From: Actinomadura sp. DC4
GTDB taxonomy: Bacteria; Actinomycetota; Actinomycetes; Streptosporangiales; Streptosporangiaceae
NCBI RefSeq assembly: GCF_030406325.1
Contig: NZ_JAUEQY010000026.1
Location: 1 to 64,000, forward strand
DNA: 64,000 bases
Reading direction: 5' to 3'
The notes below the pieces were generated by a model. That model searched no databases. It had not been told where the DNA came from and was given only the letters and a program-made list of their open reading frames with translations. Both the position numbers and the translations under genes were made by a program. Of this stretch, positions 2,142 to 25,266 are shown in pieces (within the stretch, counting starts at the first letter, position 1; each line of letters begins with the position of its first letter).

Positions 2142-2260
2142 ACCCCACGACGACCACCGGAGACCTGCGTGCGGACGGCGCGCCGCCCACGGCGGCCGTC
2201 ACCGGCACCCGCCGGAGCCCGGCGGGCGCACCGCTCTCCGCACCTGGGAGCCATCGATGA
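2138..2260 (+). CDS. Possible 40-aa protein coupled between eccC and the mycosin gene
   Basis: A 40-codon frame begins at the ATG that overlaps the eccC stop (ATGA, 2138-2141) and ends at a TGA that overlaps the next ATG (ATGA, 2257-2260). The product is rich in Thr, Pro, Ala and Arg, with no predicted domain, signal or membrane segment. CCGGAG lies just before the start. The double coupling and high G/C at third positions argue that it is translated, perhaps only to pass ribosomes to the mycosin gene. It could also be a chance frame in a 115-bp gap. I do not recognise the protein. Confidence 0.35.
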   Translation: MNPTTTTGDLRADGAPPTAAVTGTRRSPAGAPLSAPGSHR

Positions 2261-3793: not shown

Positions 3794-3846
3794 GTGTTGG
3801 AGTTCGGTATGAGATATTGGTAAAACCACATCGAACGGAGCGTCTC

Positions 3847-6753
3847 GTGACTGTCTCCTCTCCGTCCGGCTCCCCTATCGGCCGTGACGACGAACTGGAC
3901 CGGCTCCGCCATCTGCTGCATGACGCGATGGACGGCGCGGGCCGTTCGGTGTGGATCGAGGGTGAGCCGGGCATCGGCAAGTCGGCGCTGCTGGAGTCGT
4001 TCCTGAACGAGGCCGCGGCCCTCGGCTGCCGGATCCGGGTCGCCACCGCGGAGGAGTTCGGCCGCCGGCTGCCCTTGCACGCGATGCTGGACTGTCTCGG
4101 CGCCGAGCCGGGATCCGGCGATCCGGAGCTGGGCGAGATCGCCGCCCTGCTGTCGTGCGACGGCGCCACCGGACGCCCGCCCGACCCGGTCGCGGTGGCG
4201 GCGGAGCGACTGCTCAGCCTGGTGGACCGGCTCAGCACCGACGAACCCCTGATCGTCGCCGTGGACGACCTGCAGTGGGCCGATGAGGCCAGCATCCTGC
4301 TGCTGCACCGGCTGAACCGGCTCGCCCAGCGCAGGCCGCTCCTGGTCATCGGCGCGTGCCGCCCCGTACCCCGGCGCTCGGACCTCGTCACGCTGAAGCG
4401 CGGCCTGGCCCACGCCGGCGCCGAGGTCATCACCCTCGCGCCGTTGCCGCCGTCCGCCGTGACCCGCCTGACCACCCAGCTCACCGCCGAACTCACCGGC
4501 GCCCACCTGCTCGGCGTACGGCTGCGCCGCGCCGCCGAGCTCGCCGGCGGCAACCCCGCGTACCTGCGGGAGATGGTCGACACCCTGATCCGCGAGGACC
4601 GCGTACGGCGGCAGGAGGACACCGCGGAGCTCACCGGCGAGGCCGGTACGGGACTCCCCCGCGCGCTGACCGACGCGATCTCCGACCGGCTCGGCTTCCT
4701 GTCCGCCGACACGACCGACCTGCTGCGGTCGGCGACCCTTCTGGGCTCGGCGTTCTCCGTCACCGACCTCGGCGCGATCGTCGGCCGGTCCGCGCTGGAG
4801 CTGACCGCGGCCCTCGAAGAGGCCACCGCAGCGGGCGTGCTCACCGAGTCGGAGGTGCTCCTGGCGTTCCGGCACACGCTGATCCGCCAGGCCCTGTACG
4901 AGCGGTCGCCCGCCGGGCTGAGGCTCGCGTTGCATCTGCAGGCCGCACGCGCACTCGCCGACGCGGGGCTGGCCGTCGAGCGGGTGGCCGAGCAGCTGCT
5001 CGCCGCGCTGCGCGGCCCCGACGCCGTACCCGTCGTGGACGGCTGGACCGTCGACTGGCTGCTCAGGGCGGGCCGGCGGCTGGTGACCCGCGCGCCGGAG
5101 GACGCCGCGGAGCTCCTGCGGCTGGCCGTCGCGTACCTGCCCTCGGACGATCCCCGCCGGGAGTCTCTCGAGGTCATCCTGGCCCCCGCACTCGTCCTGC
5201 TCGGCCAGCGCGGCGAGGCGATCCGGCTCGTCGAGAAGGTGCTGGCCGCCACCGTCGACCCGGCGCGGGCGGCCGAGATGAGCTGGACCGCCGGCTGGGC
5301 GATGACCGACGACCACCGCCACGAGGCGGCGCTGGCCGTGCTCGGCCGCGCGCTGCAGGTACCCGGCCTGGACGACGTCTGGTCCGCGCGCCTGCACGCG
5401 ATGCTGGCACGTGCCGCCATCGCCGACGGCGACCTCACCCAGGCCGAGGCCGCCACCCGGCTCGCGCTGGCCGAGGCCGACCGGTCCGGCGACCGGCAGG
5501 CCGCCGCCGGAGCGCTGAACGCCGCCGGCATCCTCGCCACCCACCACGGCGACCTGGACGCCGCGGCCGTACGGTTCGGCCACGCGCTGGCCATCGCCGA
5601 GCAGTGCGACGATCCGGAGACCCACGAGCTGCGGCTACGGCTGCGGCAAAGCCGCGCGTACGTCCTGCTCGCCCAGGAGCGCCACGCCGACGCCGACCTC
5701 GCGGCACGCGAGCTCCTCGCCGAGGCCGAGCGCAGCGCGTCGCCGCCGCGGCTCGCCTGCGCCCGGATCCTCATCGCCGAGGTGCACTACCACGCCGGCC
5801 GGTGGACCGAGGCGGTCGCGCAGCTCGACGCCGCGGCCGCGTCGGACGACCTGATCCCCGCCGCCGACCGGCAGTGGCTGCACGGCCTGGCCGCGGTGAT
5901 CGCGGTCCACCGCGACGACCAGGCGACCGCCGAGGCACACCTGAGCGCGGTACCGGCCGTGGCGACGGTCTACGCCGGCGCGCAGTACGTACCGCTGGCC
6001 CGCGCGCTGCTGGCCGAGCGGCGCGACCTGACCGACGAGGCGCTGTCCATCCTCACCGGCCTGCTCGACCGCACGGGCGTACGCCCCGCGTACCACCGGC
6101 ACATCTGGCTGCCCACACTGCTGAGGCTGGCCCTGGGCGACGGGAACGCCGAGCTGGCGCGCGCGGTCGCCACGGCCGGCTCGGCGGTTTCGACGGACCG
6201 GCCGACCTCCAGCCTGGCCGCGGTGGCCCGGCACTGCGCGGGCCTTCTCGAGTCCGACCACGTCACGCTCACCCTGGCCGCCGACGCGTACCGCGCGGCG
6301 GGCCGCCCGCTGCACCTGGCGCAGACCCTTGAGGACACCGCGGTCGTGCTCGCCGAACGCGGCGACGCGCGCGCGGCGCGCGCCGCGCACGCCGAGGCGG
6401 CGGAGCTGTACACCGGCCTGGGCGCCACCTGGGACCTCCTGCGCGCCGACACCCGGCTCCGCCGGCACGGCGTACAGCGGAGACGCGGCCCACGCCGCCG
6501 CGCGGTCACGGGCTGGGACGCCCTGACGCCGGCCGAACTCACGGTCGCCCGCCTGGTCGCCGAGGGACGGCCGAACCCCGACATCGCCGCCAACCTGTTC
6601 GTCTCCCGGCGTACGGTCGAGGTGCACGTGTCCCACATCCTGGCCAAGCTGGGCGTACGGTCCCGCGTGGAGATCGCCCGCGAGGCGGCACGGAGATTCG
6701 CCGCCGCGATGGAGGAACACGCCCTCTCGGTACCCTCCGCCCGCGCCGGCTGA
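3847..6753 (+). CDS. LAL-type LuxR family transcriptional regulator
   Basis: A 968-aa regulator of the large ATP-binding LuxR class. An AAA domain carries Walker A GEPGIGKS (residues 39-46) and Walker B LIVAVDDLQWAD (about 136-147). A long helical TPR-like middle follows, and a C-terminal LuxR helix-turn-helix starts near residue 890 (LTPAELTVARLVAEG, then SRRTVEVHVSHILAKL). The GTG at 3847 is chosen because GGAG lies six bases upstream; a TTG at 3817 would add ten residues without a ribosome site. Such proteins activate genes in response to an inducer bound by the middle part. It has its own promoter, is followed by a convergent DeoR gene, and its target cannot be told from the sequence. Confidence 0.9.
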   Translation: MTVSSPSGSPIGRDDELDRLRHLLHDAMDGAGRSVWIEGEPGIGKSALLESFLNEAAALGCRIRVATAEEFGRRLPLHAMLDCLGAEPGSGDPELGEIAALLSCDGATGRPPDPVAVAAERLLSLVDRLSTDEPLIVAVDDLQWADEASILLLHRLNRLAQRRPLLVIGACRPVPRRSDLVTLKRGLAHAGAEVITLAPLPPSAVTRLTTQLTAELTGAHLLGVRLRRAAELAGGNPAYLREMVDTLIREDRVRRQEDTAELTGEAGTGLPRALTDAISDRLGFLSADTTDLLRSATLLGSAFSVTDLGAIVGRSALELTAALEEATAAGVLTESEVLLAFRHTLIRQALYERSPAGLRLALHLQAARALADAGLAVERVAEQLLAALRGPDAVPVVDGWTVDWLLRAGRRLVTRAPEDAAELLRLAVAYLPSDDPRRESLEVILAPALVLLGQRGEAIRLVEKVLAATVDPARAAEMSWTAGWAMTDDHRHEAALAVLGRALQVPGLDDVWSARLHAMLARAAIADGDLTQAEAATRLALAEADRSGDRQAAAGALNAAGILATHHGDLDAAAVRFGHALAIAEQCDDPETHELRLRLRQSRAYVLLAQERHADADLAARELLAEAERSASPPRLACARILIAEVHYHAGRWTEAVAQLDAAAASDDLIPAADRQWLHGLAAVIAVHRDDQATAEAHLSAVPAVATVYAGAQYVPLARALLAERRDLTDEALSILTGLLDRTGVRPAYHRHIWLPTLLRLALGDGNAELARAVATAGSAVSTDRPTSSLAAVARHCAGLLESDHVTLTLAADAYRAAGRPLHLAQTLEDTAVVLAERGDARAARAAHAEAAELYTGLGATWDLLRADTRLRRHGVQRRRGPRRRAVTGWDALTPAELTVARLVAEGRPNPDIAANLFVSRRTVEVHVSHILAKLGVRSRVEIAREAARRFAAAMEEHALSVPSARAG

Positions 6754-9005: not shown

Positions 9006-9662
9006 ATGAGCTCCCTCGTGCTGGAACGTGAATTGCCCCGGGCCTCGTCGACCGCGCCCGGACGTGCCGCCCACGCGGTGTCGCGCCGTGGCGGCCGGGT
9101 CCGCGCCGGAAAGCCCGCCCGCCCGCTCCGTACGGCTCCGGCTCCCGCGCAGGACCCGCGCGCCCTGCTCAAGACGCTGTACGCCGACCACGCGCCCGCT
9201 CTGCGGGCCTACGTCACCCGGCTGCTGTCCGACCCCCACCACGCCGAGGACGTCGTCCAGGAGACCATGCTGCGCGCCTGGCGCAACGCGGAAATGCTGG
9301 TGCCCGAGCGAGGCTCGGTGAACGGCTGGCTGATGCGCGTCGCGCACAACATCGCGGTGGACAAGATCCGCGCCCGCAAGGCCCGGCCGGACGAGGTCGA
9401 GGAGAGCGCCGCCTTGCCGCGGTCTCTCGACGACCACGCCTCCGACGTGGTGGACTCGGTGTACGTCGCCCGCGCGCTGGCCCGCCTCAGCCCGGCACAC
9501 CGCGAGGTGCTGCGCGTGGTCTATTTCGCCGACCGCACCGCCGTACAGGCCGCGGAAGAGCTCGGCCTGCCGGTCGGCACGGTCAAATCGCGCACTTATC
9601 ACGCGCTCCGCCGGATGAAGGTCTGCCTCGAAGAGGAAATGGCCGGCTCCGAGGATCAGTGA
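9006..9662 (+). CDS. ECF RNA polymerase sigma factor
   Basis: A 218-aa protein with a 55-residue basic, Ala/Pro-rich N-terminal extension, then sigma region 2 (AEDVVQETMLRAWRNAE, WLMRVAHNIAVDKIRARKA) and region 4 (LSPAHREVLRVVYFADRT, LGLPVGTVKSRTYHALRRM). This resembles the SigL-like ECF group. AGGAGAGG precedes the ATG. No anti-sigma gene is adjacent on the same strand. Its 3' end overlaps the convergent lectin gene by 7 bp, so it may control the neighbouring island; that is inference. Confidence 0.93.
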   Translation: MSSLVLERELPRASSTAPGRAAHAVSRRGGRVRAGKPARPLRTAPAPAQDPRALLKTLYADHAPALRAYVTRLLSDPHHAEDVVQETMLRAWRNAEMLVPERGSVNGWLMRVAHNIAVDKIRARKARPDEVEESAALPRSLDDHASDVVDSVYVARALARLSPAHREVLRVVYFADRTAVQAAEELGLPVGTVKSRTYHALRRMKVCLEEEMAGSEDQ

Positions 9663-10663
9663 TTCGTGCCGGTCGCCCATAGCGCATTACCGTCGGCGCG
9701 ATAGACGACCACGTTTCCGTCGTCCTGTACGGCGAGGAAGTTCCCTTCGTACCCGTGGGTCCCCGAGGCCCATTCCACGCCGCCGTCGGCGTTGTGGACC
9801 ACGAGGTCGCCGTCGATCCGGAAGGTCGCGTGCACCCCGCGCCCGGCCGTCCCCGACGTCCAGCGGACGCGCGCGTCCTCGTCGTAGACGACCAGGTCCC
9901 CGTCGGCGCGGAACACCAGCCAGGCGCGCCGCGAACGTACGTGGTCGCCGGGGCGCAGCAGCAGGTGGCTCCAGTACGTGGAGGCGACGACGTCCGCGGC
10001 CATCGCCTCGGTGACGCGGGCTCGTCCGGCGGCGCTCGCCTCCCGGCCGACGCCGTCCGGTACGGGCGGTGTCACGATCTCCGCGTGCACGTCGCCGATC
10101 TCGGTCCAGTAGCGCCCGGACGCGCTGGTCACCTTGAGGCGTTCGCGCGGCGCCTCGAGCGCGGGCCAGATCTGCAGCAGGTAGTCGTCCATGACTCCGT
10201 CCTCGTCCGCGTCGCCCACCAGGTCCATGTGCCGCGCGTGGTAGCGCAGCCGGTACGAGCCCGGCCCCGCGAGCAGGTCGACGTCCCGGGCCCGCGGGTT
10301 GGCCGTGCCCCACTCGACCAGTGACATCACGCCGGTGGGCGAGGCGAAGCCCGCCTCCTCGACGTCCTCGTACCAGTCGAGCCGGGCGCCGGGGTCGTGG
10401 GCGGAGACCACGACGGTGCATCCGACGTGGCCGTACTGCGTGCCGGTGACCAGCACGACCTCGCACGGCCGTACCGTGACCAGGCCCGCCAGGCCGCCGA
10501 GCGACACGGTCGGCCGGTACGCGCGGTCCTGGAGGTAGAACCGCGCGTAGGCCACGTCGACGGTGCCGTGGAACACCACGCCGCCGAGCGCTCCGTAGGT
10601 GCCGATGCCGGGGCCTCCCTCCGGTTCGCCTCCCGGGACGGGCCAGGCCTCCTCAAGTACCAA
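9656..10663 (-). CDS. Bulb-type mannose-binding lectin domain protein
   Basis: A 335-aa protein. Residues about 235-335 contain three beta-prism repeats of the bulb-lectin (GNA) type: FRADGDLVVYD, FRIDGDLVVHN and VQDDGNVVVYR, each followed by a W-x-S/T-GT turn. These resemble the QxDxNxVxY mannose-binding motif, though the first Gln is kept only in the last copy. The first 230 residues form an unrecognised domain. Start is TTG at 10663, supported by GGAGG six bases upstream and an 11-bp overlap with the preceding AAA+ gene. There is no signal peptide, so export by a standard route is not evident. It is the last gene of a four-gene overlapping run. Confidence 0.82.
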   Translation of the reverse strand: MVLEEAWPVPGGEPEGGPGIGTYGALGGVVFHGTVDVAYARFYLQDRAYRPTVSLGGLAGLVTVRPCEVVLVTGTQYGHVGCTVVVSAHDPGARLDWYEDVEEAGFASPTGVMSLVEWGTANPRARDVDLLAGPGSYRLRYHARHMDLVGDADEDGVMDDYLLQIWPALEAPRERLKVTSASGRYWTEIGDVHAEIVTPPVPDGVGREASAAGRARVTEAMAADVVASTYWSHLLLRPGDHVRSRRAWLVFRADGDLVVYDEDARVRWTSGTAGRGVHATFRIDGDLVVHNADGGVEWASGTHGYEGNFLAVQDDGNVVVYRADGNALWATGTNH

Positions 10664-13600
10664 CGCGGGCCTCCGGCTCGGCGGGTGCGATCACGTCCTC
10701 GCGCAGCAGCAGGCACAGGTCCTGGACCGTGGGCGACTCCGTACGCCGCAGGCGCCTGGCGTGCCGCGTGACCGCCTCGTCGAGCACCTGGCGCGCGTAG
10801 CGGCCGTTGCCGAAGGACGCCCCCCGCGACACACCGGCGAAGTGCGCCCGCAGCGCCGCCACCGTCGCGCTGCCCAGCTCGTACCCGGCCGTCGCCGCGT
10901 GCTGGCTGACGATCGTGACCAGCTCGTCCGTCGAGTAGTCGGCGAACCGGACCCGGTGGGAGAACCGCGACGACAGCCCGGGGTTGGCGCCGAGGAACCT
11001 CTCCATCTCTCCCTCGTAGCCGGCCGCGATCACCACGACCTCGTCGCGATGGTCCTCCATGAGCTTGACCAGCGTGTCGATCGCCTCGCGCCCGAAGTCG
11101 GCGCCGGCGCCGGGCTGCGACGCGAGCGTGTAGGCCTCGTCGATGAACAGCACCCCGCCGCGCGCCCGGTCGAAGGCCGCCTTCGTACGCTGCGCGGTGT
11201 GGCCGACGTACTCCCCCACGAGGTCGCTGCGGCCCACCTCGATGACCTGGCCCCGCTGGAGCACGCCCATGGCCGCCAGGATCGAGCCGTACAGCCTGGC
11301 CACGGTCGTCTTGCCCGTACCCGGCGGCCCGGCGAAGATCAGATGCCGCGACAGCGGCGGCGCCGGCAGGCCGGCCGCGATCCGCTGCCGGGAGGACGCG
11401 AGCAGGTCGACCATGTTGCCGACCTCGCGCTTCACGTCGGCGAGGCCGACCATCTGCTGCAGCTCGGACAGCAGCGAGTCCACCCGGTCGGTGTCCGAGG
11501 CGCCGGCGTCGGCGCCGACTCCTCCGCTCGGCGGCGGCGCGAGGTCGGAGGGCAGCAGCCGGATCATCTCCACCGGCGTGATGTCGTCCACCTCGGCGAG
11601 GCGGTACGCCTGCCGGCCCACCATCTCCTCGAACACCTTGCGCGCGCTGCGGCCGTTGCCGAACGCGTCGTCGCGCGGCATGTTCTCGAAGCAGGTGACG
11701 AGTGCCGCGCGGGTCTCGAACTCCAGCTTGTAGTCGTGCGCCCGGCACTGCCCCTCGACGATCGTGACCAGGTCGGCGGGCGTGTAGTCGGCGAACTCGA
11801 TGGTACGGGAGAAGCGCGAGGCCAGGCCGGGGTTGCTGGCCAGGAACTTGCGCATCTCGTGCGTGTAGCCGGCCACGATCACCACGATCTCGTCGCGGTG
11901 GTCCTCCATCAGCTTGACCAGTGTGTCGATCGCCTCGCGGCCGAAGTCGGGGCCGCCGGTGGCGCTCGCGGACAGGGTGTAGGCCTCGTCGATGAACAGG
12001 ACGCCGCCCAGCGCCTCCTCGAACCGTTCGGCGGTCTTCATCGCGGTGCCGCCGACGACGCTCGCGACCAGGTCGGGCCGGCCCACCTCGACGAGCTGCC
12101 CGGTGGCGATGACGCCCAGCTCGGCCAGGATCCGCCCGTACAGCCGGGCCACGGTCGTCTTGCCCGTACCCGGAGAGCCGGTGAAGACGAGGTGCCGCGA
12201 CAGCGGCGGCGCCGGCAGGCCGACCGACGCACGGCGCGCGGCCATCTGGTGGAGCCGTACGAGGGTCTCCACCTCGCGTTTGACCTCGGCGAGGCCGACG
12301 AGGGCGTCCAGCTCTTCGAGGAGTTCGCCCAGCGGGCCTCGTACGGCACGCGAGGGCTTCTTCTTCCTCGGCGCCGGCATCGGCTCCTCGCGCGGGACGC
12401 GGGGCGTCATCGGCCCGGCGGGCACGGTCTGCTCGGGCGCCTCCGTCTCGTCCCCGCGCAGGTCGGCGCCGTCCCACTCGGCGGTGTCCCCGCGTACGTC
12501 CGCGTAGGTGTCCTCCGCGCCGTTGTCCCGGCTGGTGACCCGGGTGACCTCCAGCCGGTCGGTGGGCGTCGTGATGCGCAGGCCCGCGCCGGTGTTGTCG
12601 TGGACGAGGCAGTCCCGCAGCAGGACCGGCTCGGTGGAGTGCACGAGGATGCCGTCGCCGCCGGAGGCGCTGACGTCGCACGCCGACGCCTCACCGGACG
12701 AGCCCGCGCTCCACTCGATCCCGGCGCGGCGTGAGGCGCGGATCCGGGTGCGCGCCAGCCGCGCCGTGGCGCGGCTCGCGACCAGGACTCCCTCGGCCTG
12801 GGGGTCGGAGATATCGCCCTCTTCCAGGTCGACCTCGCCGCCGGCGACGTGGACCGCGGCGGCGCCGCTGCGGACGAACGCGCAGCCGCGCACCTCCGGC
12901 CGGCCGCTGTGGGAGACGCGCAGGCCCGCGCCGGCCGACTCGGTCACGGTCGCGTCCTCGAACAGCCCGCGGCCCTGCTCGGTCACGAGGATCCCGTCAC
13001 CGCCGGGCGAGGAGACGATCGCGCGGCGGAACCTCGGGTGCGCGCCGGACCGTACCTCCAGGCCGTTCCCTGCCGGGCGGTCGACGCGCAGCTCGTCGAA
13101 GGTGGGCGTGGCCGACTCGCTCACCGAGACGCCGGTGCCGCCGCCGCCCTCGACGCGCAGCCCCTCGAAGGAGCTGGTCGACGCGCCGGAGACCAGCACG
13201 CCGGTGTCGCCCGAGCCCGCCACGACGCAGTCGTTGAACGTCCCGGTGGAGGAGTCGAGGACGTGCACGCCGTACCCGCCCGACTCGCGTACCTCGACGC
13301 GCTGCAGGTCCGGCGCCGCGCCCTCCACCAGCGCGACGCCCTGGGCGCCGGCGCCGGACACCGCGCAGTCCTCCAGCAGCGGCGTCGAGCCGGACGCGAT
13401 GAGCACGCCGACGCCTTCGCAGTCCTCGATGACGGTCGCGGTCAGGTGAGGCGCGCTGTCGCCCTCGATGGCGACGGCGGGGTTCCCGGCCCGTACGATC
13501 CGGCAGTCGCGTACGGTCCCGCGCGCCCGTTCGGCGGCGAGCAGGCCGCTGCCCTCGATGTCGGTGATCGTGCAGTCGGTGAGCTGGGGGTTCGCGCTGG

Positions 13601-14114
13601 TACGGATGACGACCGCGGAGGCCTTGACGTTGCGCAGCGTGCACTCGGTCAGGCTGCCCTCGGCGCCCTCCACGAAGATCACGCCGGCGCCGGCCGGGTT
13701 GGTGAACTCACAGCCGCGCGCGTTGACCTCGGCGGCGCCGTGGGCGTACAGCGCGGCGGCCGAGTCGGCCTCCACCGTGCACTCGTCCATCCGGAGCCGG
13801 CCGGTGGGCACGTCGATGGCGGAGGTCTGCTCACCGCTGTGCCGTACGACGACGCCGGAGAGCGTGGCCGACTCGCCCGCGATCCGGATCGTGGGGGCGT
13901 CGCGCGACTCGATGCGCACCCCGCCCGGCGCGCCCGCCGCCGAGAGCGTGATCTCCCGGTGCAGCACGACCGCCTCGATGTACGTGCCGGGCTGGATGGA
14001 GATCACGTCGCCGTGGCCGGCGGCGGCGACGGCGTCGCTGATCGTACGGTAGGAGTCCGCGGCGGTCGCCGACACGTTCAGGATCGACCGCGTCGGGGTC
14101 AGCCTGCCTGCCAT
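10653..14114 (-). CDS. Right-handed beta-helix protein fused to two CbbX/EccA-like AAA+ domains
   Basis: A 1153-aa protein. Residues about 10-540 are repeated parallel beta-helix coils of the NosD/pectate-lyase type, marked by recurring D-C-x-V/I-x-x-S-G-x-x-G-V patterns. A short linker leads to two AAA+ domains of the CbxX/CfqX (SpoVK) family. Walker A GSPGTGKTT (near residue 650) and GPPGTGKTT (near 930), Walker B GGVLFIDEAYTL in both, and the SRF arginine-finger region are all intact. EccA of ESX systems has the same AAA+ type behind a TPR domain; here a beta-helix replaces it. The ATG at 14114 has GGAGGAGA upstream and overlaps the previous gene by 16 bp. Confidence 0.85.
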   Translation of the reverse strand: MAGRLTPTRSILNVSATAADSYRTISDAVAAAGHGDVISIQPGTYIEAVVLHREITLSAAGAPGGVRIESRDAPTIRIAGESATLSGVVVRHSGEQTSAIDVPTGRLRMDECTVEADSAAALYAHGAAEVNARGCEFTNPAGAGVIFVEGAEGSLTECTLRNVKASAVVIRTSANPQLTDCTITDIEGSGLLAAERARGTVRDCRIVRAGNPAVAIEGDSAPHLTATVIEDCEGVGVLIASGSTPLLEDCAVSGAGAQGVALVEGAAPDLQRVEVRESGGYGVHVLDSSTGTFNDCVVAGSGDTGVLVSGASTSSFEGLRVEGGGGTGVSVSESATPTFDELRVDRPAGNGLEVRSGAHPRFRRAIVSSPGGDGILVTEQGRGLFEDATVTESAGAGLRVSHSGRPEVRGCAFVRSGAAAVHVAGGEVDLEEGDISDPQAEGVLVASRATARLARTRIRASRRAGIEWSAGSSGEASACDVSASGGDGILVHSTEPVLLRDCLVHDNTGAGLRITTPTDRLEVTRVTSRDNGAEDTYADVRGDTAEWDGADLRGDETEAPEQTVPAGPMTPRVPREEPMPAPRKKKPSRAVRGPLGELLEELDALVGLAEVKREVETLVRLHQMAARRASVGLPAPPLSRHLVFTGSPGTGKTTVARLYGRILAELGVIATGQLVEVGRPDLVASVVGGTAMKTAERFEEALGGVLFIDEAYTLSASATGGPDFGREAIDTLVKLMEDHRDEIVVIVAGYTHEMRKFLASNPGLASRFSRTIEFADYTPADLVTIVEGQCRAHDYKLEFETRAALVTCFENMPRDDAFGNGRSARKVFEEMVGRQAYRLAEVDDITPVEMIRLLPSDLAPPPSGGVGADAGASDTDRVDSLLSELQQMVGLADVKREVGNMVDLLASSRQRIAAGLPAPPLSRHLIFAGPPGTGKTTVARLYGSILAAMGVLQRGQVIEVGRSDLVGEYVGHTAQRTKAAFDRARGGVLFIDEAYTLASQPGAGADFGREAIDTLVKLMEDHRDEVVVIAAGYEGEMERFLGANPGLSSRFSHRVRFADYSTDELVTIVSQHAATAGYELGSATVAALRAHFAGVSRGASFGNGRYARQVLDEAVTRHARRLRRTESPTVQDLCLLLREDVIAPAEPEARVGT

Positions 14115-15109
14115 ACCGGCTCTCCTCCGGTCGGAGCGAACAAGGTCGTGAGCACTCGGTGCCGGGTGAGCCGGTTGAGCGGGCCCGGCGGTCCCTTCTG
14201 GGCCAGCGCGTGCGCGACCAGCTCCGGATCCGGCGCGAGGTGGTGGCGCTTCAGGTAGTACGCGACGGCGTCGGGCCAGACCCACCGGCCGTCGGAGCGG
14301 AACCCCGCCGGGACCGCGCCCAGCCGCCCCTGGTCCAGCACGTCGTCCAGGGCGCCGGGCGTGTTCAGGATCGGCTCACCGCCGCTCAGGTACGCGAGGA
14401 CCCGCTCGCCGTCCGGCCCGCCGAGCCGCGGATGGTCGTCGTGGAAGTACGGCCCGCCGGCGGCGTCCGCGCCGTCGAAGACCCGCACCAGGTGTACAGG
14501 CGTGTCCTCGGCCGCCCAGACGAGGGTCGCGCCGCCGAGCGCGGCGTCGTGGTAGGCCGGAAGCGGCGTTCCCTCTTCGAAGACCTCGACCCGCGGGGTG
14601 TCCTCGCTCGCCTCGGTGAGCGCGTACTGCATCTCCGCGGTCGGCTCGGCCAGGTCCGCGCCGGTCCGCGCCTCGGCGAGGTACACGCGCCGCGCCGGGC
14701 CCTCGTGCGCGTGCCGGAACACCCGCCAGATCCCGATCAGCCCGCCGACGCGCTCACCCGCCTCCACGACGACCGCGTCCATCGCGTCCTTCTGGCTCTC
14801 CCAGCCATCGCCGTTCGGCATGGTGACCCCGTACTCGTCGCCGAAGCGGTACGGCAGGGGCAGCGGCGACCCGATCCGGGGCGCGTGGTCGGCCCGCGCG
14901 GTGCCGGCCTCCTGGTCGGTCAGCGCGAGCCGTCCGGTCTCGATCTCGGCCGCCAGCAGCGACGTGAGCTCGTCCAGCTCTCCGTCGGCCAGGCAGAGCC
15001 GCATCTCGGCCAGCCCTTCGTCCGGGATCCGGCCCGCCAGGCCCAGCAGCAACGCGTACAGGTCCTGCGTCTCGGTTCTCGGTACACCCTCCGCCTCCGC
15101 TGTGGTCAC
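14099..15109 (-). CDS. Hypothetical protein of the T7SS-linked island
   Basis: A 336-aa protein, not recognised. It has an acidic helical N-terminal part (residues 1-70), a beta-rich middle with many aromatic residues (GVTMPNGDGWESQKDA, GLIGIWRVFRHAHEGPARR), and a C-terminal part rich in Leu and Arg. No signal or membrane segment. GTG start at 15109 overlaps the stop of the giant gene upstream (GTGA), and its own end overlaps the AAA+ gene, so these products are probably made in fixed proportion and may interact. Confidence 0.75.
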   Translation of the reverse strand: MTTAEAEGVPRTETQDLYALLLGLAGRIPDEGLAEMRLCLADGELDELTSLLAAEIETGRLALTDQEAGTARADHAPRIGSPLPLPYRFGDEYGVTMPNGDGWESQKDAMDAVVVEAGERVGGLIGIWRVFRHAHEGPARRVYLAEARTGADLAEPTAEMQYALTEASEDTPRVEVFEEGTPLPAYHDAALGGATLVWAAEDTPVHLVRVFDGADAAGGPYFHDDHPRLGGPDGERVLAYLSGGEPILNTPGALDDVLDQGRLGAVPAGFRSDGRWVWPDAVAYYLKRHHLAPDPELVAHALAQKGPPGPLNRLTRHRVLTTLFAPTGGEPVWQAG

Positions 15110-18100
15110 GGCATGCTCCTCGCGGGGTCGCCCGGCAGGGGCGAGAAACGGTCGTCGGGTTCGTCGAACTCACCGGACGGCGCGGCCCGGTTGGCGACCG
15201 CCTCCTCGAGGCGGGCCGTGATGCGGGCGGTCCAGTCGTCGTGGCCCGGCCCGGCCTTGGCCGCCGGAACCTCGGTGAGCAGAACCCTGCGCGCCCCCGG
15301 CGCCCCGGGCGCGAACGGCGGGCCGACGGAAAGGACGCGGAAGACCGTGCCGGGCAGGAAGACCACCTCCGGCGTGGTCCGCTTCTCGACGAACCCGTTG
15401 AGGCGGCGAGCGGTGGCCGACCAGATGATGATCTCGACCTTCCCGGGTACGGGGGCGTCGATGTCGTCGAGCGCGATCAGCGGGGCCGCCTCGATGAGGT
15501 CCTGCCCGGGCCGGTAGGCGTCCGCGGCGGCGGGGTCCACGGGCCCGCCGCGGACGACGACGCCTTGGAAGGAGGGCAGCCGCCGGAGCCCGGCGGCGGC
15601 ACAGACGGCGAGCGCGGCGTCGTGTTCGCCTCCCCCGGACCTGATGGTCTCGACCAGCTCGGTCTCGCTCCGCCCGACGAACACCCGTACGGCGGCGAGC
15701 TCGGTCATCAACGCCTCATCCGTCTGCGCGCCCCGCAGCCCGGGGTGCTCGGCCAGGAGCCGGGCCACGGAACGCGCGGCGGCGTCGTACCGCCAGCCGA
15801 GCGAGGCCCGGAAGGCCTGCCGCTCTTCGGGCGTACTCATCCGATCGGCGAGCCAGAGCCGGTCGTAGTCCTGCGGGAGCGCGGGCGGAACCGGCGGGAG
15901 CACGGGCTCGTGCGCGGGGGGCCGGTCTCCGTCGTTCTGCGGCGGCGCCCACGAGCCCGCGACCGGTGACCCGGGCCGCATCCTGTGGTGATGCGGGCCG
16001 GCGGATGTCTCGTCGGACCTCGGCGTCGCGGCCCGGAGCCCGGCGTCCTGCGGCGGCCCCCAGGCGCTCGCGCCGGGCGCCTGGGGGTCGACCGGCCGCA
16101 CCCACGAACCCGCGGGTGGAGACTGCGGCGGCATCGCGCGCTGACGCGGGCCAGGCGCCTCACCGGACCTGCGCACCGCGCCCGGCTGGCCGCCAGTCTG
16201 CGGCGGCGCCCAAGTGTTCGCGCCGGGCGCCTGGGGGTCGACCGGCTGCACCCACGAACCCGCGGGTGGAGACTGCGGCGGCATCGCGGGCTGGCGCGGG
16301 CCAGGTGCCTCGCCGGACCTGCGCACCGCGCCCTGCCCGCCGTCCTGCGGCGGAGCCCACGCGGAGCGGCCCGGGTTCTCGGGTGTCTCGGCGGGCGTCG
16401 ACGGGCTCGGGGACCGTAGAGGCTCGGCGCGCATTCTCCCTGGCGGCGAGCCTGCGTCGGCCCGCGACGTGCCGGGGCGTGGAGCCGCAGGCTCGCGCGT
16501 GCCTTCGGCCGACGGCGACGGCCAGGAAGCCGGGTCCGCGCCGCCCGGCGACGCGTCGGACCGCCGGGTCCCGGCCTCCGGCGGAGGCCACGAACCGCCG
16601 GCGTTCCCCGCCTCGCCGGGTGGTACGACTCCGTCGCCCGGTGCGCCCTCGTTCTCCGGCGCCCGCGCCTCGCCGGGAGGCGGTGCGGCGGCTCCGTCGC
16701 GCGGCGCGTTCTCCGGTGCCGCACCGGCCTGCCGGAACTCCGCGCTCTGCGGCGACGGCCACGAACCGACGCTGCTCTCCGATACCTCCGTCTCGCCGGA
16801 CGACGGCGGTACGGCTCCGTCGCGCGGCGCGCCTCCGGCCAGCGGCGACGGCCACGAACCGACCACGTTCTCCGGTATCCGCGCCTCGCCGGAAGGCGGT
16901 GCTGCCCCTTCGTCTCGCGACGCGTTCTCCGGCGAAGGCGACGGCCACGAACCGGGGTCCGCGCTGTCGGGCCGCCGGTCTGTGGCGTGCGGTTGGTCCT
17001 GGGATGAGGTTCCCGCTACTGGCGGGGGCGCCCACGAGGGGTGTTCCGCGCTCTCCGCCGCCCATCCGTCGGCGGCCGGGGCGGGCTCCAGCGTCGGAGG
17101 GCTCCAGGAGCCGGTGGTCTCCGACGCCGCACCGCGCGACGATCCGGACGGCCGGGTCTCCGGGATCGGTGGTGCCCAGCGCGTGTCGTCTCGGGGTGTC
17201 GTGCCGTCCGGGGCCGGGTTCTGTGCGGACTCCGCCGGTTCGGCCGGGCTCTGGGCTCTTCTCTCGGGCTGGGTGTCATGGTCGCGTGGGTCCCAGACCA
17301 CCTGGTCGGGCGTGGCCCGTACCTCGTCCGGGACCTCGGATGCCGCCTCCTGCCGTGGCTCCTGCGGCGCGCGGTGGGCCGGCTCGCCCGGCGTCGCGGC
17401 GAACTCACCGGAGGTCCCGGCCGGCGGCGTCGCCGCATGAGGCGTGCCCGGCTCCGGCGGCCGGGACCGCATCGGTACCGCTCGCGCCGTCGGCCGTGTC
17501 TGCGGGAACACCGTGGACACCGTGGTCTGGAAGGCGCTCGGGGCCGTCGGCGCGTCCGTCACCGGACGTGCGGAGCCGGGCGGACCGTCCCCCTCGGCGG
17601 CGAACGCCGCCGGTACGTCACCGCGCGCCGGCGATGCCTCCGGCCCGGCCGTCTCTCCGGTCTCGGCGGCCTCGTCGGTACGCGCGTCCGCGGGAGCGGC
17701 CTCTGCCGGCCTCCGGGCCGCGGACGTCGCCGGTCCGGACTCGGTCACCGCCCTTCCCGCGACCGTCCCAGGCGTCGTCTCAGACGCGGGCCCGGCCTCA
17801 GGTGCGAACAGAGGCCCGGACTCGGTCACCGCCCTTCCCGCGACCGCCCCGGGCGTCGTCCCGGATACGGGCCCGGCCTCAGGCATGAGCGGCGGGCCGG
17901 ACTCGGTCATCATCCCCGCCGCGGCGGCCCTCGGCGCCGCCTCGGGCCCGGGTCCGGTTTCGGGCGCGCCCCCTGCCGCCGCGTTCCCCCACGCCGTCTC
18001 AGAGGCGAGCGGCCCGGCCGTGAACGCCTCCGGCCCGGCCTCCGCCGCCGTCCCCGCCAACGTGGTCCCCGGCATCGCCGTGGGTCCCGTCCCGGGTACG

Positions 18101-19638
18101 AGCACCGCCGGCCCGGCGCCGGTGGCCGTCCCCGCCGCTCCGGGCATCCCCTCGGACATGAATTCCAGGGCCGCTGCCGCCGGTGCGGCCTCGGGGGCGA
18201 AGGCTCCCGGGATCGTGATCGGTGTGATGGACCACCGGCCGGCCGGGCGCAGGACTCCCCCGGCGTCGACCAGGACCACCGCGCCCTGGCCCGGCGGCTG
18301 TTCCGCCGGTGCGGCGAAGGCGCTGCCGTCCAAGGGCGCGATCGGCTGGGTCGGTGTGTCGATCGACGCCTCGAAGACGACCGGGTCGAAGTCGTCCGCC
18401 GCGTCGCCCGTGTCCGGGGCCGTGAACCGGCTCTCCGGCACCCGGCCCGCGACCGGCCCGCCGACATCAGGTCCACCGACATCAGATCCACCGAAATCGG
18501 GCCCACCGGCATCCGGCTCACCCACGACCGGCCCACCTGCGACCGGCCGGTCCATGACCGCCCCGCCGGACACCGGCCCCCGAGAGACCGGCCCGCGAGA
18601 AAGCGTGCCCTGCGCGGCCTCCGCCAGCGCCGGCTCGCGTACGCCCGTGTGCGACCTCGCCGTCGACGTCGCCCGGGCCGGCGCGTAGACGCTCTCAGGC
18701 GTCCGCGTCAGGCTCTCCGGCGCGCCCGTCGTGTTGAAGATGGCGAACCGGCACGTCCCGTCCGTCGCGTAGTGCGGCAGTGCGTGGTACGCGCGGATCG
18801 TGATGTCGAGGCGGTCGGCGAGGCCCTGGGCCAGCGCGGCGCACGTCGACGGAGACTGCCCGTACGGCACGAGGACGGCGTTCTCCCGTACCACCGGCGG
18901 CAGTGACTCGTAGAAGGCCACCAGCTCGCCGACGCCCGGCACCCGCTCGCCCGGCGCGCCCACCAGCACGAGAGGCCGCCCCGGCTCGACGGGGACGCCG
19001 AACCCGAGGTCGACCAGCGGCAGCGGAGCCGTGCCCGCCCCGCGTACCCACAGGCCCGCCGGGATCGCGGTCACCGTCACCGGTACCGTGGCGGCCCGGC
19101 GCTCGCGCGAACGAAACCGGGAGAACGGCCTCGGCTTGGCCGAGCGGAACTCACGCGGCAGCGCGGCCTGCCAGACCGGCGCCGGATACCGGGGGCCGGT
19201 CCATTCCGGAATCCCGCCGCGGCGGAAGCCGAGCCAGCCGGCCCCGGGCCCGGCGGAGAAGAGTTCGCCGCCGCGCAGCGCGATGAGTTCGCCGTCCGGT
19301 GCGACCACGCCGACGCCGAGCCGGTCGGCCAGCCTGGCGGCCAGCGGCGGCGCGCCGGACGGGTCGGGGCGCCCGGCGCGCGCGGCGACGAGCCGCATTC
19401 CCCAGCCCGGGGGCGCGTCGGCGTACAGCCGGCTCTTGAGCTGCTCCAGCAGCCGGTCGTCAAGGGCGTTCAACGCGCCCGCCGCGGAGGCGTCCACCAC
19501 GACGGTGGTCCGCGAGGGCTCGGACGGGAGCGCCGCCGCGAAACCGATCGCCTTGGTATCGGCGTCCGACGCGCGGACCACGAGCGCCCTTTCGGCCCGT
19601 TCGATCACGATCGCGCCGGCATTTCCACCGATCGGCAC
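15106..19638 (-). CDS. Giant protein: folded N-domain, 900-residue disordered Pro/Ala-rich middle, ADP-ribosyltransferase-like C-domain
   Basis: A 1510-aa protein. Residues 1-320 are folded (alpha/beta, WLGFRRGG, PLVLVGAPGERVPG). About 325-1255 are low-complexity Pro, Ala, Gly, Ser, Thr with direct repeats. Residues 1260-1500 are folded again and resemble the R-S-E class of ADP-ribosyltransferases: an arginine in VVVRGG (near 1363), WSATAR (near 1406) as the STS-like strand, and TPEVVFLPGTVFRVLSV (near 1424) as the ExE-like strand, where the second Glu is kept but the first is Thr. Transferase activity is unproven. No signal peptide. GTG start with AAGGAGG. It diverges from the EccC-like gene at 19872 and leads the overlapping run. 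Confidence 0.8.
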   Translation of the reverse strand: MPIGGNAGAIVIERAERALVVRASDADTKAIGFAAALPSEPSRTTVVVDASAAGALNALDDRLLEQLKSRLYADAPPGWGMRLVAARAGRPDPSGAPPLAARLADRLGVGVVAPDGELIALRGGELFSAGPGAGWLGFRRGGIPEWTGPRYPAPVWQAALPREFRSAKPRPFSRFRSRERRAATVPVTVTAIPAGLWVRGAGTAPLPLVDLGFGVPVEPGRPLVLVGAPGERVPGVGELVAFYESLPPVVRENAVLVPYGQSPSTCAALAQGLADRLDITIRAYHALPHYATDGTCRFAIFNTTGAPESLTRTPESVYAPARATSTARSHTGVREPALAEAAQGTLSRGPVSRGPVSGGAVMDRPVAGGPVVGEPDAGGPDFGGSDVGGPDVGGPVAGRVPESRFTAPDTGDAADDFDPVVFEASIDTPTQPIAPLDGSAFAAPAEQPPGQGAVVLVDAGGVLRPAGRWSITPITIPGAFAPEAAPAAAALEFMSEGMPGAAGTATGAGPAVLVPGTGPTAMPGTTLAGTAAEAGPEAFTAGPLASETAWGNAAAGGAPETGPGPEAAPRAAAAGMMTESGPPLMPEAGPVSGTTPGAVAGRAVTESGPLFAPEAGPASETTPGTVAGRAVTESGPATSAARRPAEAAPADARTDEAAETGETAGPEASPARGDVPAAFAAEGDGPPGSARPVTDAPTAPSAFQTTVSTVFPQTRPTARAVPMRSRPPEPGTPHAATPPAGTSGEFAATPGEPAHRAPQEPRQEAASEVPDEVRATPDQVVWDPRDHDTQPERRAQSPAEPAESAQNPAPDGTTPRDDTRWAPPIPETRPSGSSRGAASETTGSWSPPTLEPAPAADGWAAESAEHPSWAPPPVAGTSSQDQPHATDRRPDSADPGSWPSPSPENASRDEGAAPPSGEARIPENVVGSWPSPLAGGAPRDGAVPPSSGETEVSESSVGSWPSPQSAEFRQAGAAPENAPRDGAAAPPPGEARAPENEGAPGDGVVPPGEAGNAGGSWPPPEAGTRRSDASPGGADPASWPSPSAEGTREPAAPRPGTSRADAGSPPGRMRAEPLRSPSPSTPAETPENPGRSAWAPPQDGGQGAVRRSGEAPGPRQPAMPPQSPPAGSWVQPVDPQAPGANTWAPPQTGGQPGAVRRSGEAPGPRQRAMPPQSPPAGSWVRPVDPQAPGASAWGPPQDAGLRAATPRSDETSAGPHHHRMRPGSPVAGSWAPPQNDGDRPPAHEPVLPPVPPALPQDYDRLWLADRMSTPEERQAFRASLGWRYDAAARSVARLLAEHPGLRGAQTDEALMTELAAVRVFVGRSETELVETIRSGGGEHDAALAVCAAAGLRRLPSFQGVVVRGGPVDPAAADAYRPGQDLIEAAPLIALDDIDAPVPGKVEIIIWSATARRLNGFVEKRTTPEVVFLPGTVFRVLSVGPPFAPGAPGARRVLLTEVPAAKAGPGHDDWTARITARLEEAVANRAAPSGEFDEPDDRFSPLPGDPARSMP
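16048..16344 (-). repeat. Two tandem copies of a 150-bp in-frame repeat
   Basis: Copies at 16048-16197 and 16198-16344 (the second is one codon shorter) are nearly identical over most of their length and encode units containing PPAGSWV-PVDPQAPGA and RRSGEAPGPRQ. A third, degraded copy begins at 16345. They lie in the disordered middle of the giant protein. Confidence 0.8.
17737..17979 (-). repeat. Three 81-bp in-frame repeats
   Basis: Copies start at 17737, 17818 and 17899, each opening GGACTCGGTCA on the plus strand, and encode 27-residue units around AGRAVTESGP. The first two are close matches and the third has diverged. Confidence 0.7.
18461..18535 (-). repeat. Five 15-bp in-frame repeats
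   Basis: Units such as CCGACATCAGGTCCA at 18461, 18476, 18491, 18506 and 18521 encode a run of five-residue GGPDV-like units in the giant protein. The last two units are degraded. Confidence 0.75.
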
Positions 19639-19871
19639 CCGTGCCTCCTTCCGCCCGTGACGTCCTCACTGAATTCACGTCTGTGGGGCCGCCGGGAGTT
19701 CACCCCAATGATCGCCGGTCGAGCCCACGGCGAGCACGCGCTACGCTCCGAAGAGTCGGCGCCGCACGCGGTCACCGGCCCCTCCGGGAACCCCCGACGA
19801 GACCCTCGGCGAAACCCCGGACGGGCGGCCGGGGACCGCCGACCCCCCGGCGCGGCGAGAAGGAGGGTTTC

Positions 19872-22094
19872 GTGAGTCGAGATCGGCGCCGCGACCCGTT
19901 CGGAGACGGCGCGGCGGACGTGGGACCGGCGACATCGGTCATGCCGGTCAGGTCAGCACCCGAGCCGACGAGCGGCCGGTGGTCACGTGTCCTGTTCCTG
20001 GGCGAGGACGCGACGAGACGCGCCTTCGCGCACGCCGTGCTCGCCCGGCTCGCCGCGGCCCACCCCTCCGGCCGGCTCGTGATCGTGCTCCGCGTCGCGC
20101 CCCAGCGGCGAGCGGAGTGGGCCTGGACACGCTGGCTCCCCCACACAGGCCGCACGGACGAGACGTTCCAGAGCCGCCCCGCCTTCACGGCCGGCGTACG
20201 CCCCGATCCGGACGAGCCGCTCGCCGTCGTGGTGCTCGACGGCGCGGACCTGCCGCCGGGCGACCGCCTCGCCGCCGCCGGCTTCCGCAACACCGTCGTG
20301 CTCGACCTCGACGGCAGACGCCGCCGGCCGGGCCGTACGACGCTGCGCCTGGACGCCTCTCCCGACGGCGTACGCGCGCTGTGGGTCGACCAGGACCGTA
20401 CGGAACGCTCCACGCCGGTCGCCGACCCGCGGGCCGCCGCCGCCCTGATCGCCCCGGAGACGGCCGAGGTGAGCGACGCCGGGCGACGGCTCGCCGCGGC
20501 GCTCGACGCCGCCGGGGCCGAGCATCCCGGCGGGTGGTCGCCGCCGCTGACCGCCGCGCCGACGATCGACCATCTTCTGCCGCCGCTCGTGCCCTCCCAC
20601 GACCGTGGCCTGACCACCGCCGCGCCGCCCGAGGGCGGGTCGTTGATGGTCCCGCTCGGCATCGTCGACCGGCCCTTCGCGCGCCTTCCCGACGTCCTGC
20701 GGGTCGACCTGTCCGGGCACCTGCTCGTCTCCGGCGCCGCCGGCAGCGGCCGGAGCACCCTGCTGACGACCCTGGTCATCGCGCTCGCCCTCACCCACAG
20801 CCCGCGCGAGGCCCAGGTCTACTGCCTCGACCCCGACGGCTCGCTGGGGGCGCTGTCCGGCCTGCCGCACGTCGGCGCCGTGGCGGGCGACCCCGACACG
20901 GCCGGCGCGACGATCGCCAAGGTCACCGCGCTGCTCGACCACCGCGAACACCTCTTCGCCGAGCACGGTGTCGACGGGATGGACGCCTACCGCTCCCGCC
21001 GCGAGGAGTTCCCCGACGAGCGGTACGGCGACGTGTTCCTGCTGGTGGAGGGCGCGGTGCCGGACGCGTACGAGACCGACCTCGGCCGCCTCGCCGCCGG
21101 CGGCCCCGCCCACGGCATCCGCCTGGTCGTCACCGCCGGGCCCGGCCCCGAGCCGCCCGCGTTCCTGCGTTCCGGTACGGGCCTGGAGCTGCGCCTCGAC
21201 GACCCCGCGGCGGCACCCGGACGCGGCATGATCGGGGAGTCGGCCTTCCTGACCGCGCTGCCGCGCGTCGACGGCGTCGAGAGCACCGACCGCCTGCCGA
21301 TCGCCGTCGCCGCGCTGGTGGCCGAGATCGCCGAACACTGGGGTGAGCGTCCCGGGGCGCCCGGCGTACGCGCGCTCCCGTCGGTCGTGGCCGCCGGATC
21401 GCTCCCGGAGCCCGACGGCCGCCTGCGCGCGGTGATCGGGGTCAACGAGGGCGAGCTCGCGCCGGTCCAGCACGACTTCGCCACCGCGCCGCACCTGATC
21501 GTCATCGGTGACGCAGGCAGCGGCAGGACGAACCTCCTTCGCCTCGTCGCGGAGTCGATCACGCTGTCCCACAGCCCGCTCGAGGCCCGCATCCTCCTGG
21601 TCGACTACCGGGGCGGGCTGCTGCACGCGATGCCGGAGGAGTTCGTGCTGGGCCACGCCTTCTCGGCCGGAGTGCTCGGCGAGCTGGTCGAGGGCACCGC
21701 CCTCGCGATCGGCGAGCGGGTGGCGCCGGCGTCCGGCGGGCGGGCGGCGCGCGACTGGCAGGGGCCGCGGCTGTTCATCCTCATCGACGACTACGAACAA
21801 GTACGCGACCGGGGCCGCGGCCTGCTCGAACCCCTGGTGGAATACCTCCCGCTGGGGCATGAGCTGGGCGCGCACCTGATCGTCGCGTGTTCCTCGGCCG
21901 GCGCCGGGGCCGCGATGGACGACCCGCTGCTGCGCGGCATGCACGACGCGGGCGCGGGCACCCTGCTGCTGTCCTGCCCGCCCGAGGAGGGCGACGTGCT
22001 CGACGGCCTCGAACCCCGCGACCTGCCGCCGGGCCGCGCCCGCTACCGCGTGCGCGGCGAGACGATCCTGGTCCAGACCGGCCTGGCCGAGTGA
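19872..22094 (+). CDS. Soluble EccC-like protein with two FtsK-type domains and arginine in both Walker A motifs
   Basis: A 740-aa protein; GTG start with AGGAGG five bases upstream. It lacks the membrane segments and first ATPase domain of EccC. Residues about 40-150 match the EccC stalk region just before domain 1 (WAWTRWLPHTG), followed by domains corresponding to EccC domains 2 and 3. Walker A reads GAAGSGRST (Arg294) and GDAGSGRTN (Arg552), so the phosphate-binding lysine is arginine in both. Walker B of the first is DVFLLVEG, of the second RLFILIDDYE. It is probably a non-hydrolysing receptor or adaptor. It diverges from the giant gene, and its stop abuts the convergent LysR stop (TGATCA). 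Confidence 0.85.
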   Translation: MSRDRRRDPFGDGAADVGPATSVMPVRSAPEPTSGRWSRVLFLGEDATRRAFAHAVLARLAAAHPSGRLVIVLRVAPQRRAEWAWTRWLPHTGRTDETFQSRPAFTAGVRPDPDEPLAVVVLDGADLPPGDRLAAAGFRNTVVLDLDGRRRRPGRTTLRLDASPDGVRALWVDQDRTERSTPVADPRAAAALIAPETAEVSDAGRRLAAALDAAGAEHPGGWSPPLTAAPTIDHLLPPLVPSHDRGLTTAAPPEGGSLMVPLGIVDRPFARLPDVLRVDLSGHLLVSGAAGSGRSTLLTTLVIALALTHSPREAQVYCLDPDGSLGALSGLPHVGAVAGDPDTAGATIAKVTALLDHREHLFAEHGVDGMDAYRSRREEFPDERYGDVFLLVEGAVPDAYETDLGRLAAGGPAHGIRLVVTAGPGPEPPAFLRSGTGLELRLDDPAAAPGRGMIGESAFLTALPRVDGVESTDRLPIAVAALVAEIAEHWGERPGAPGVRALPSVVAAGSLPEPDGRLRAVIGVNEGELAPVQHDFATAPHLIVIGDAGSGRTNLLRLVAESITLSHSPLEARILLVDYRGGLLHAMPEEFVLGHAFSAGVLGELVEGTALAIGERVAPASGGRAARDWQGPRLFILIDDYEQVRDRGRGLLEPLVEYLPLGHELGAHLIVACSSAGAGAAMDDPLLRGMHDAGAGTLLLSCPPEEGDVLDGLEPRDLPPGRARYRVRGETILVQTGLAE

Positions 22095-25232: not shown

Positions 25233-25266
25233 CGGGCGTACCGCGTCGTGACCTTGTGTGCTCGTC

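Follow-up and report, generated by a model that had tools for sequence, protein, structure and literature searches.

The window analyzed here, bases 1-64000 of contig NZ_JAUEQY010000026.1 (C30) of Actinomadura sp. DC4 (genome G000), contains a gene module linked to the type VII secretion system (T7SS), which consists of four overlapping minus-strand genes and a divergent EccC-like gene. From left to right, the minus-strand genes encode a bulb-type-lectin-like protein (9656..10663), an EccA-type protein in which a right-handed beta-helix precedes two AAA+ domains (10653..14114), a two-domain protein without a known family, denoted UNK below (14099..15109), and a large mono-ADP-ribosyltransferase-like (ART-like) protein (15106..19638); the EccC-like gene occupies 19872..22094 on the plus strand. 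All open reading frames (ORFs) of the module show a coding-type GC content of third codon positions (GC3), and their positions hold. The junctions reported in a preliminary description of the window, which was made from the sequence alone, are present in the sequence: the ART-like and UNK genes overlap by 4 bp (GTGA, 15106-15109), the UNK and EccA-type genes by 16 bp (ATGGCAGGCAGGCTGA, 14099-14114), and the EccA-type and lectin genes by 11 bp (TTGGTACTTGA, 10653-10663). Judging by coordinates, the first two overlaps are identical in length in G006 and G003, both of which belong to this genus, and the third one in G006. A GGAGG- or GAGGAG-type stretch is found upstream of all four minus-strand starts as well as upstream of the re-assigned start of the EccC-like gene. 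The shared overlaps and the GGAGG-type sequences point to translational coupling, and the four genes are probably translated together.

Two of the gene starts require comment. For the EccA-type gene, position 14114 is a likelier start than the first GTG of the ORF (14285), and for the EccC-like gene, 19872 is favored over 19641 because the G003 copy contains stop codons upstream and because the sequence AAGGAGG precedes this start in the window. With the latter start, the intergenic region 19639..19871 would be a probable divergent promoter.

The EccA-type protein contains a beta-helix (PF13229, 4.2e-49) and two SpoVK/EccA-type AAA+ stretches that, when summed, score 471.8 bits against TIGR03922 (cut-off 466.65); TIGR02881 (spore_V_K) gives the higher score of 523.5. 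The Walker A and Walker B motifs are intact in both AAA+ domains, and the protein is 88% identical to its counterpart in G006 and 84% to that in G003. The N-terminal TPR region of the mycobacterial type is missing, and the beta-helix takes its place, exactly as proposed in the preliminary description. This architecture is, however, already published: PMC10659427 states that the beta-helix is an N-terminal EccA domain and names this form as an EccA variant. T7SS variants are also catalogued in a 2024 survey which calls the function of EccA unknown (PMC11217815). The description of the module as undescribed accordingly stands for the ART-like protein and UNK, neither of which is described as a part of T7SS clusters in the titles and abstract openings of the papers found by targeted searches of the open-licence literature, and falls for the beta-helix EccA. 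An article on toxin domains including ART, which also covers T7SS (PMC3482391), contains no mention of EccA in the portion available. What appears to be new, then, is that the accessory half of this ESX cluster includes two conserved protein families, ART-like and UNK.

The ART-like protein (1510 amino acids, aa) consists of an N-terminal domain (residues 1-320), a low-complexity linker of ~920 residues and a C-terminal mono-ADP-ribosyltransferase-like domain (~1240-1510). In the two relatives from the same genus, the N domain is 80 and 71% identical and the C domain 76 and 68% identical to those in the window, whereas the linker comprises only 382 and 319 residues, so that the giant size of the window protein is due to a variable linker. 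The protein matches no family in Pfam or NCBIfam, and neither does the C domain alone in Pfam. The assignment to the ART fold comes from sequence profiles: a profile of the 17-member C-domain family finds XopAI, the best relative with a solved structure, at 1.4e-14 and also matches Vis and the 6DRE/6DRH chains, and profile comparison connects the C domain with a large toxin-like ORF that carries three ART repeats, PF01129 being recognized in two of them. In the window copy, the motifs V-R-G, S-A-T and T-P-E retain the Arg, the Ser and the catalytic Glu, and none of the three full patterns (arom-R, [YFL]-R; STS, S-[TS]-[STQ]; and ARTT, [QE]-x-E) is present. A tally of 33 domain rows, six of which are toxin repeats, shows that Arg and/or Glu have been lost in 11 of the 27 ART-like proteins, including all four that are encoded next to EccB (Arg replaced by Leu or Val, Glu by Arg), and that [QE]xE occurs in one of the 27 compared to four of the six toxin repeats. 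Two further large ORFs carry three ART repeats each (L086:1-9303, 3100 aa, and L097:6101-13258, 2386 aa), and the second of these lies near EccC and mycosin genes.

For the N domain of the ART-like protein, searches with 15 members gave no convincing match in Pfam, NCBIfam or the PDB, and the fold predicted from the single sequence was useless (mean predicted local distance difference test score, pLDDT, 40.5). A degenerate caspase-like domain, suspected by eye, was not supported by any search. The N and C domains were each detected in 11 of 250 genomes of the family, eight of which belong to the genus itself.

UNK likewise has no relative in Pfam, NCBIfam or the PDB, and Pfam scans of 15 members of the C-terminal and nine members of the N-terminal half families revealed no immunity family, the best value (0.0012) being to a domain of unknown function. 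The two halves of UNK are also found separately in other proteins. A contig scan with UNK alone as the query yielded one locus. Among the matches listed, eight of the ten UNK-related loci that were read (L019, L022-L029 and L031; L030, L032, L033 and L034 fall outside this count) include T7SS core genes or an ORF longer than 1300 aa within the stretch, and the remaining two, L022 and L023, include neither.

The EccC-like protein scores 411.5 bits against TIGR03925, the EccCb model (cut-off 346.55), and thus contains the D2 and D3 domains, but only 114 bits against the EccCa model (cut-off 509.15), so that it is no full motor: the N-terminal membrane part and the D1 ATPase are missing. The D1 Walker region is absent in all three orthologs, that of G006 also lacking the first 150 residues, and the Walker A Lys is replaced by Arg in D3 of all three species and in D2 of two of the three. 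The ratio of nonsynonymous to synonymous substitutions (dN/dS) is 0.43-0.46 for this gene and 0.12-0.51 across all ten genes or domains compared, estimates that were obtained with the Nei-Gojobori method on GC-rich genes and should be taken as a coarse guide; given these values, the altered EccC is no evident decaying pseudogene. Among 43 EccC-like places in the eight genomes of the genus, forms without D1 are limited to the three orthologs and an orphan on contig C34 of the DC4 genome; two additional short EccC-like frames, one of them on C38, are merely cut by contig ends. The orphan (L210:8716-10596, 626 aa) comprises D2 and D3 only, with intact Walker lysines, and no other T7SS gene was recognized in the stretch read around it; the notion that the loss of D1 is specific to the locus in the window had to be abandoned.

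A second EccC gene, truncated by the contig start, opens the window (57..2141, plus strand). It encodes the C-terminal part, D2 and D3 with intact Walker lysines, of what is the normal full-length EccC of the cluster: the fragment corresponds, at 92.5% identity, to residues 665-1360 of EccC from G006 (1360 aa, EccCa plus EccCb according to NCBIfam). Adjacent to it is an S8 family gene for a mycosin (MycP; 2257..3441, plus strand; PF00082, 6e-29), in which motif alignment shows that the Asp and the His are kept and the catalytic Ser is replaced by Gly. The pseudo-mycosin of the preliminary description is therefore real, and the same replacement is found in G006, G003 and a paralog on C38. The window mycosin is probably inactive, judging from these residues; the protease activity of MycP1 is reported to be dispensable for secretion (PMC5082899), so that the loss of Ser need not imply an inactive system. 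Another mycosin of the same genome (C10, L147:11777-12940), which adjoins EccC and a beta-helix EccA, has all three residues, Asp, His and Ser, replaced.

The connection of the module with an ESX core is apparent from comparison within the genus. The block from a LuxR-type regulator (3817..6753, plus strand) to the EccC-like gene is syntenic in G006 (nine of nine genes) and in G003 (seven of nine), the lectin gene and the hypothetical gene at 7909 not being found in the latter. The block includes the ECF sigma factor gene at the module edge (9006..9662, plus strand; PF04542/PF04545), correctly noted in the preliminary description, which is convergent with the lectin gene and, like the LuxR-type gene, is retained in both relatives. 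To the left of the block, both genomes encode a large LXG-like protein, small WXG100-like proteins, EccB and EccD, followed in divergent orientation by a full-length EccC and the mycosin. In G006, the core proteins score above the NCBIfam cut-offs (EccB, TIGR03919; EccC, TIGR03924/03925; EccD, TIGR03920), and G003 has the same layout. In the DC4 genome, the corresponding left half is located at the end of contig C47. Its EccB and EccD are 82% and 90% identical, respectively, to the G006 proteins, and its LXG-like ORF, ~4149 aa as far as it was read, continues beyond the stretch covered. This synteny suggests that C47 and C30 join and that the assembly splits a single ESX cluster. Since the core adjoins the module in G006 and G003 and a matching left half ends C47, the window module is, by gene order, the right-hand half of an actinobacterial ESX-type (T7SSa-like) cluster that, taken as a whole, is complete. 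In the other five of the eight genomes of the genus, neither a full-length UNK nor an EccC match spanning the N-terminus of the EccC-like protein was found. The DC4 genome yields seven EccD matches, one of them weak (contigs C55, C10, C57, C27 and C47), and therefore several ESX clusters coexist in it.

Outside the genus, the three proteins were sought in 197 genomes of the class per search (the same draw, judging by the genome handles). EccA-type proteins were detected in 55 genomes (E <=1e-60, including matches to the AAA+ part only), the ART C domain in 20 and UNK in 17 (both at 1e-6). Of the 13 near-full-length UNK genes (13 of 32 rows), 11 have an EccA-type gene no more than 10 kb away, compared to ~0.06 expected for random positions, and eight have an ART gene at this distance or closer. 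For ART genes, an EccA-type neighbor within the same distance was found in 10 of 16 cases (~0.10 expected for random positions); for this count, 16 of 32 rows were used, omitting the second piece of one locus, 12 weak matches and three toxin repeats located on C62. Distances were measured to the E <=1e-60 set, in which many matches cover the AAA+ part only, and miss weaker and beta-helix-only copies. All three genes are found together in seven of the eight genomes with a near-full-length UNK (G000, G289, G306, G343, G367, G403 and G420), which represent families f1, f19 and f39. The three genes are direct neighbors in G343, in the order EccA-ART-UNK, and in G306, in the order UNK-ART-EccA; in G403 and G289, a second beta-helix match without AAA+ directly follows the ART-like gene (L211:3258-4457 and L212:5506-6747). 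The proposal that these genes are linked to T7SS and conserved together is thus borne out both in the relatives and among the 197 genomes of the class, and the homologs recur together rather than being scattered. Two very long ORFs, L214:1132-19800 and L103:2-16114 (~6223 and ~5371 aa, respectively), are found near UNK, ART-like and EccA genes.

Viewed from the EccA side, 19 of 20 EccA-type regions could be annotated, one contig being only 4.2 kb long; among these neighborhoods, which are those of the best matches rather than a random sample, EccB, EccC, EccD or mycosin is present in eight, ART in six and UNK in six, as far as called ORFs are concerned. The simple ORF caller missed some genes (EccB in L213, beta-helix genes in L211 and L212) that were recovered by a six-frame check. 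In a second arrangement, the order EccC-EccD-EccB-ART-EccA is continued by small WXG100-type genes; four clusters have it, those of G142, G368 and G429 and one on a plasmid of Streptomyces sp. NBC_00055 (L159), and the WXG100 pair beside EccB-ART-EccA in G142 passes PF06013. The succession of EccB, ART and beta-helix/AAA+ genes is found at L099, L155 and L213 and on this plasmid. These ART-like proteins encoded next to EccB are about 815-980 aa long and have lost the catalytic residues. In a third arrangement, the neighbors of the ART-like gene are giant ORFs, RICIN or bulb lectins and a T7SS-associated protein, which in L082 is NF033532. UNK, the ART-like protein and EccA hence appear to travel as a unit that is attached to ESX cores or to large genes.

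The sequences show which genes are present, that their overlaps and order are conserved, that two sister species have them linked to a full ESX core, and that UNK, ART-like and beta-helix EccA genes repeatedly lie near one another in other families. From this basis, stepping from gene order to mechanism, we infer a function. A travelling unit of this composition fits substrate handling better than it fits a structural part of the machine or a toxin pair, and we give about an even chance to the interpretation that the four minus-strand genes and the EccC-like gene form a cytoplasmic set for handling large T7SS substrates. Under this interpretation, the beta-helix/double-AAA+ protein would act like EccA and remodel substrates or adaptors, with the beta-helix as a recognition arm. 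UNK would bind large T7SS substrates encoded near members of its family, either as an adaptor or chaperone in the role that EspG has in mycobacteria or as an immunity protein. The ART-like protein may be a scaffold, its ART fold binding a peptide or target without modifying it, in the manner in which XopAI captures an Arg peptide; according to PMC6829252, XopAI is unsuited to bind NAD+ and nevertheless captures such a peptide. The EccC-like protein, which ends in D2-D3 and lacks D1, could be a soluble substrate receptor for the real EccC of the cluster, and the lectin would be an accessory rather than a core part.

A more specific proposal, which we put forward only tentatively, is that actinomycete T7SS outside mycobacteria include an undescribed component, a pseudo-ADP-ribosyltransferase (N domain, disordered linker and ART fold) encoded between EccB and the beta-helix double-AAA+ EccA, the disabled active site of which would serve to recruit substrates. 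Where these are very large, it would be paired with a UNK adaptor replacing EspG and, in the genus of the window, also with a motor-less EccC receptor. To our knowledge, little is known of how very large substrates are recognized by T7SS outside mycobacteria, and the conserved gene set offers concrete candidates for an adaptor, a scaffold and a remodelling ATPase. If the proposal is correct, this would be another enzyme fold reused as a part of a secretion system.

Several observations weigh against the substrate-handling interpretation. Arg, Ser and Glu are kept in 16 of the 27 ART-like proteins, that of the window included, so that enzymatic activity is conceivable from the residues, and at six of the 16 ART loci no EccA-type gene lies closer than 10 kb, among them L082, where the ART-like gene lies beside a giant ORF and the NF033532 protein. 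UNK was not found by the six-frame check in the four clusters with an EccB-adjacent ART-like gene and therefore is no universal core part; its structural model is poor (mean pLDDT 52), and Foldseek gave no match at <=0.001 and no EspG among the 50 matches listed. At L019, three tandem UNK-type genes behind an ORF of 3316 aa have the look of an immunity array. The module is present in just three of the eight genomes of the genus, and the WXG100-like genes to the left of EccB score below the cut-off of 44.85 bits (19.5 in G006, 22.1 in the DC4 genome).

Some of these points would be expected if the ART-like protein were a secreted ADP-ribosylating toxin, with UNK, the product of the overlapping next gene, providing immunity and the EccA-type and EccC-like proteins aiding export. 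The profile alignment of the ART C domain with the repeats of the toxin-like ORF, the Arg-Ser-Glu triad of the window copy, the short distance between the ART domain and the nearest UNK in seven genomes (within 2.6 kb) and the resemblance of the tandem UNK copies in L019 to the immunity strings described in PMC9484751 all speak for such a pair. However, the ART-like protein has no recognized T7SS export or trafficking domain (no WXG, LXG or PPE in Pfam and NCBIfam searches), [QE]xE is missing in 26 of the 27 ART-like proteins and present in most of the toxin repeats, the EccB-adjacent copies are without Arg and Glu and no UNK was found near them, and at L019 and L031 UNK relatives follow large ORFs in stretches where no ART-like protein was found; a toxin-immunity pair is accordingly doubtful. 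The preliminary description had instead envisaged a separate accessory ESX pathway that exports or handles the giant ART-like protein. That the set can be separated from a core is indicated by the regions of 16-40 kb around UNK, ART and EccA in G343, G289, G306, G403, G420 and G367 (families f19 and f39), in which searches for EccB, EccC, EccD and mycosin gave no match. In the genus of the window, by contrast, EccB, EccD, the full EccC and mycosin adjoin the block, with the left half on C47 in the organism itself, and no membrane component belonging to the module alone was found. The view that the ART-like protein is itself the very large substrate to be exported was given up as well, since its size resides in the linker, the EccB-adjacent copies are smaller and have lost catalytic residues, and no export domain is recognizable. 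A free-standing pathway is thus unlikely. Least probable is a decaying duplicate cluster, in which the altered EccC and mycosin would be marks of decay and the four genes leftovers under weak constraint: the Walker A replacements, the deletion of D1 and the loss of the mycosin Ser could be read in this way, but the frames are open in three species, dN/dS is below 1 in every gene tested, the loss of D1 and of the mycosin Ser is kept in all three species and the main EccC is intact, which largely refutes decay into pseudogenes.

The cluster can be compared with known systems. As in mycobacterial ESX (T7SSa, with EccA, EspG and MycP), EccB, EccC, EccD, mycosin, WXG100-like proteins and an EccA-type AAA+ protein are encoded together. 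Mycobacterial EccA contains one AAA+ domain, whereas EccA of the window has two, and a beta-helix where the mycobacterial protein has TPR; we know of no counterpart of UNK or the ART-like protein in mycobacterial ESX clusters. The plasmid of Streptomyces sp. NBC_00055 (NZ_CP108260.1) shows the order eccC-eccD-eccB, an ART-like 'hypothetical protein', 'right-handed parallel beta-helix' and WXG100; it differs from the window in that UNK was not found and only one EccC is present in the stretch, and in that the ART catalytic residues are lost there and kept here. XopAI, a type III effector with the mono-ADP-ribosyltransferase fold (6K93, 6K94), is the best relative of the ART domain among solved structures, and an altered active site and peptide capture are reported for it. 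XopAI keeps [QE]xE and has FTG in place of the aromatic residue-Arg motif, whereas the window copy retains Arg and Glu and has T-P-E; the host and the secretion route also differ. The EccCb of split EccC proteins (ESX-1 type) resembles the EccC-like protein in having D2 and D3 ATPase domains without the membrane part and D1; the cluster described here differs in encoding a complete EccC as well, and the EccC-like protein in retaining a piece of the region before D1 and in its mutated Walker lysines. Finally, the giant-protein loci, one of which, on a Streptomyces plasmid, is annotated 'lonely Cys' and another of which is the genus locus L082 with NF033532, also have a protein with an N domain, linker and ART domain beside a lectin, but no beta-helix or AAA+ match is present in the stretches of L082, L156 and L157. 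In the two of these loci that were tallied, L082 and L156, Arg, Ser and Glu of the ART domain are kept. No paper on 'lonely Cys' was found in the open-licence literature. At the edge of L157, on a Streptomyces plasmid (NZ_CP109179.1), the genes for a T7SS-associated protein and an ART-like protein are preceded by a single 90-kb gene (175202-265261) annotated 'glycosyltransferase'.

The lectin gene of the module is real, but its assignment is weak on its own, with 21.8 bits for B_lectin (Pfam cut-off 32.4) and 75.6 bits for NF033557, also below the cut-off, so that the lectin of the preliminary description stands as a gene and not as a confident domain match. The protein is 75% identical to its counterpart in G006, and lectin-like or RICIN proteins adjoin several ART-like genes elsewhere.

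At the Rfam gathering score, no RNA feature was found in the window. A tRNA-Leu called by ARAGORN at 5499-5590 lies inside the conserved coding frame of the LuxR-type gene and, for this reason, is probably false. To the right of the module, the window encodes a tandem terpene synthase with two PF19086 stretches (23082-25349), in our reading geosmin-synthase-like, and a protein of glycosyl hydrolase family 25 (26322-27206).

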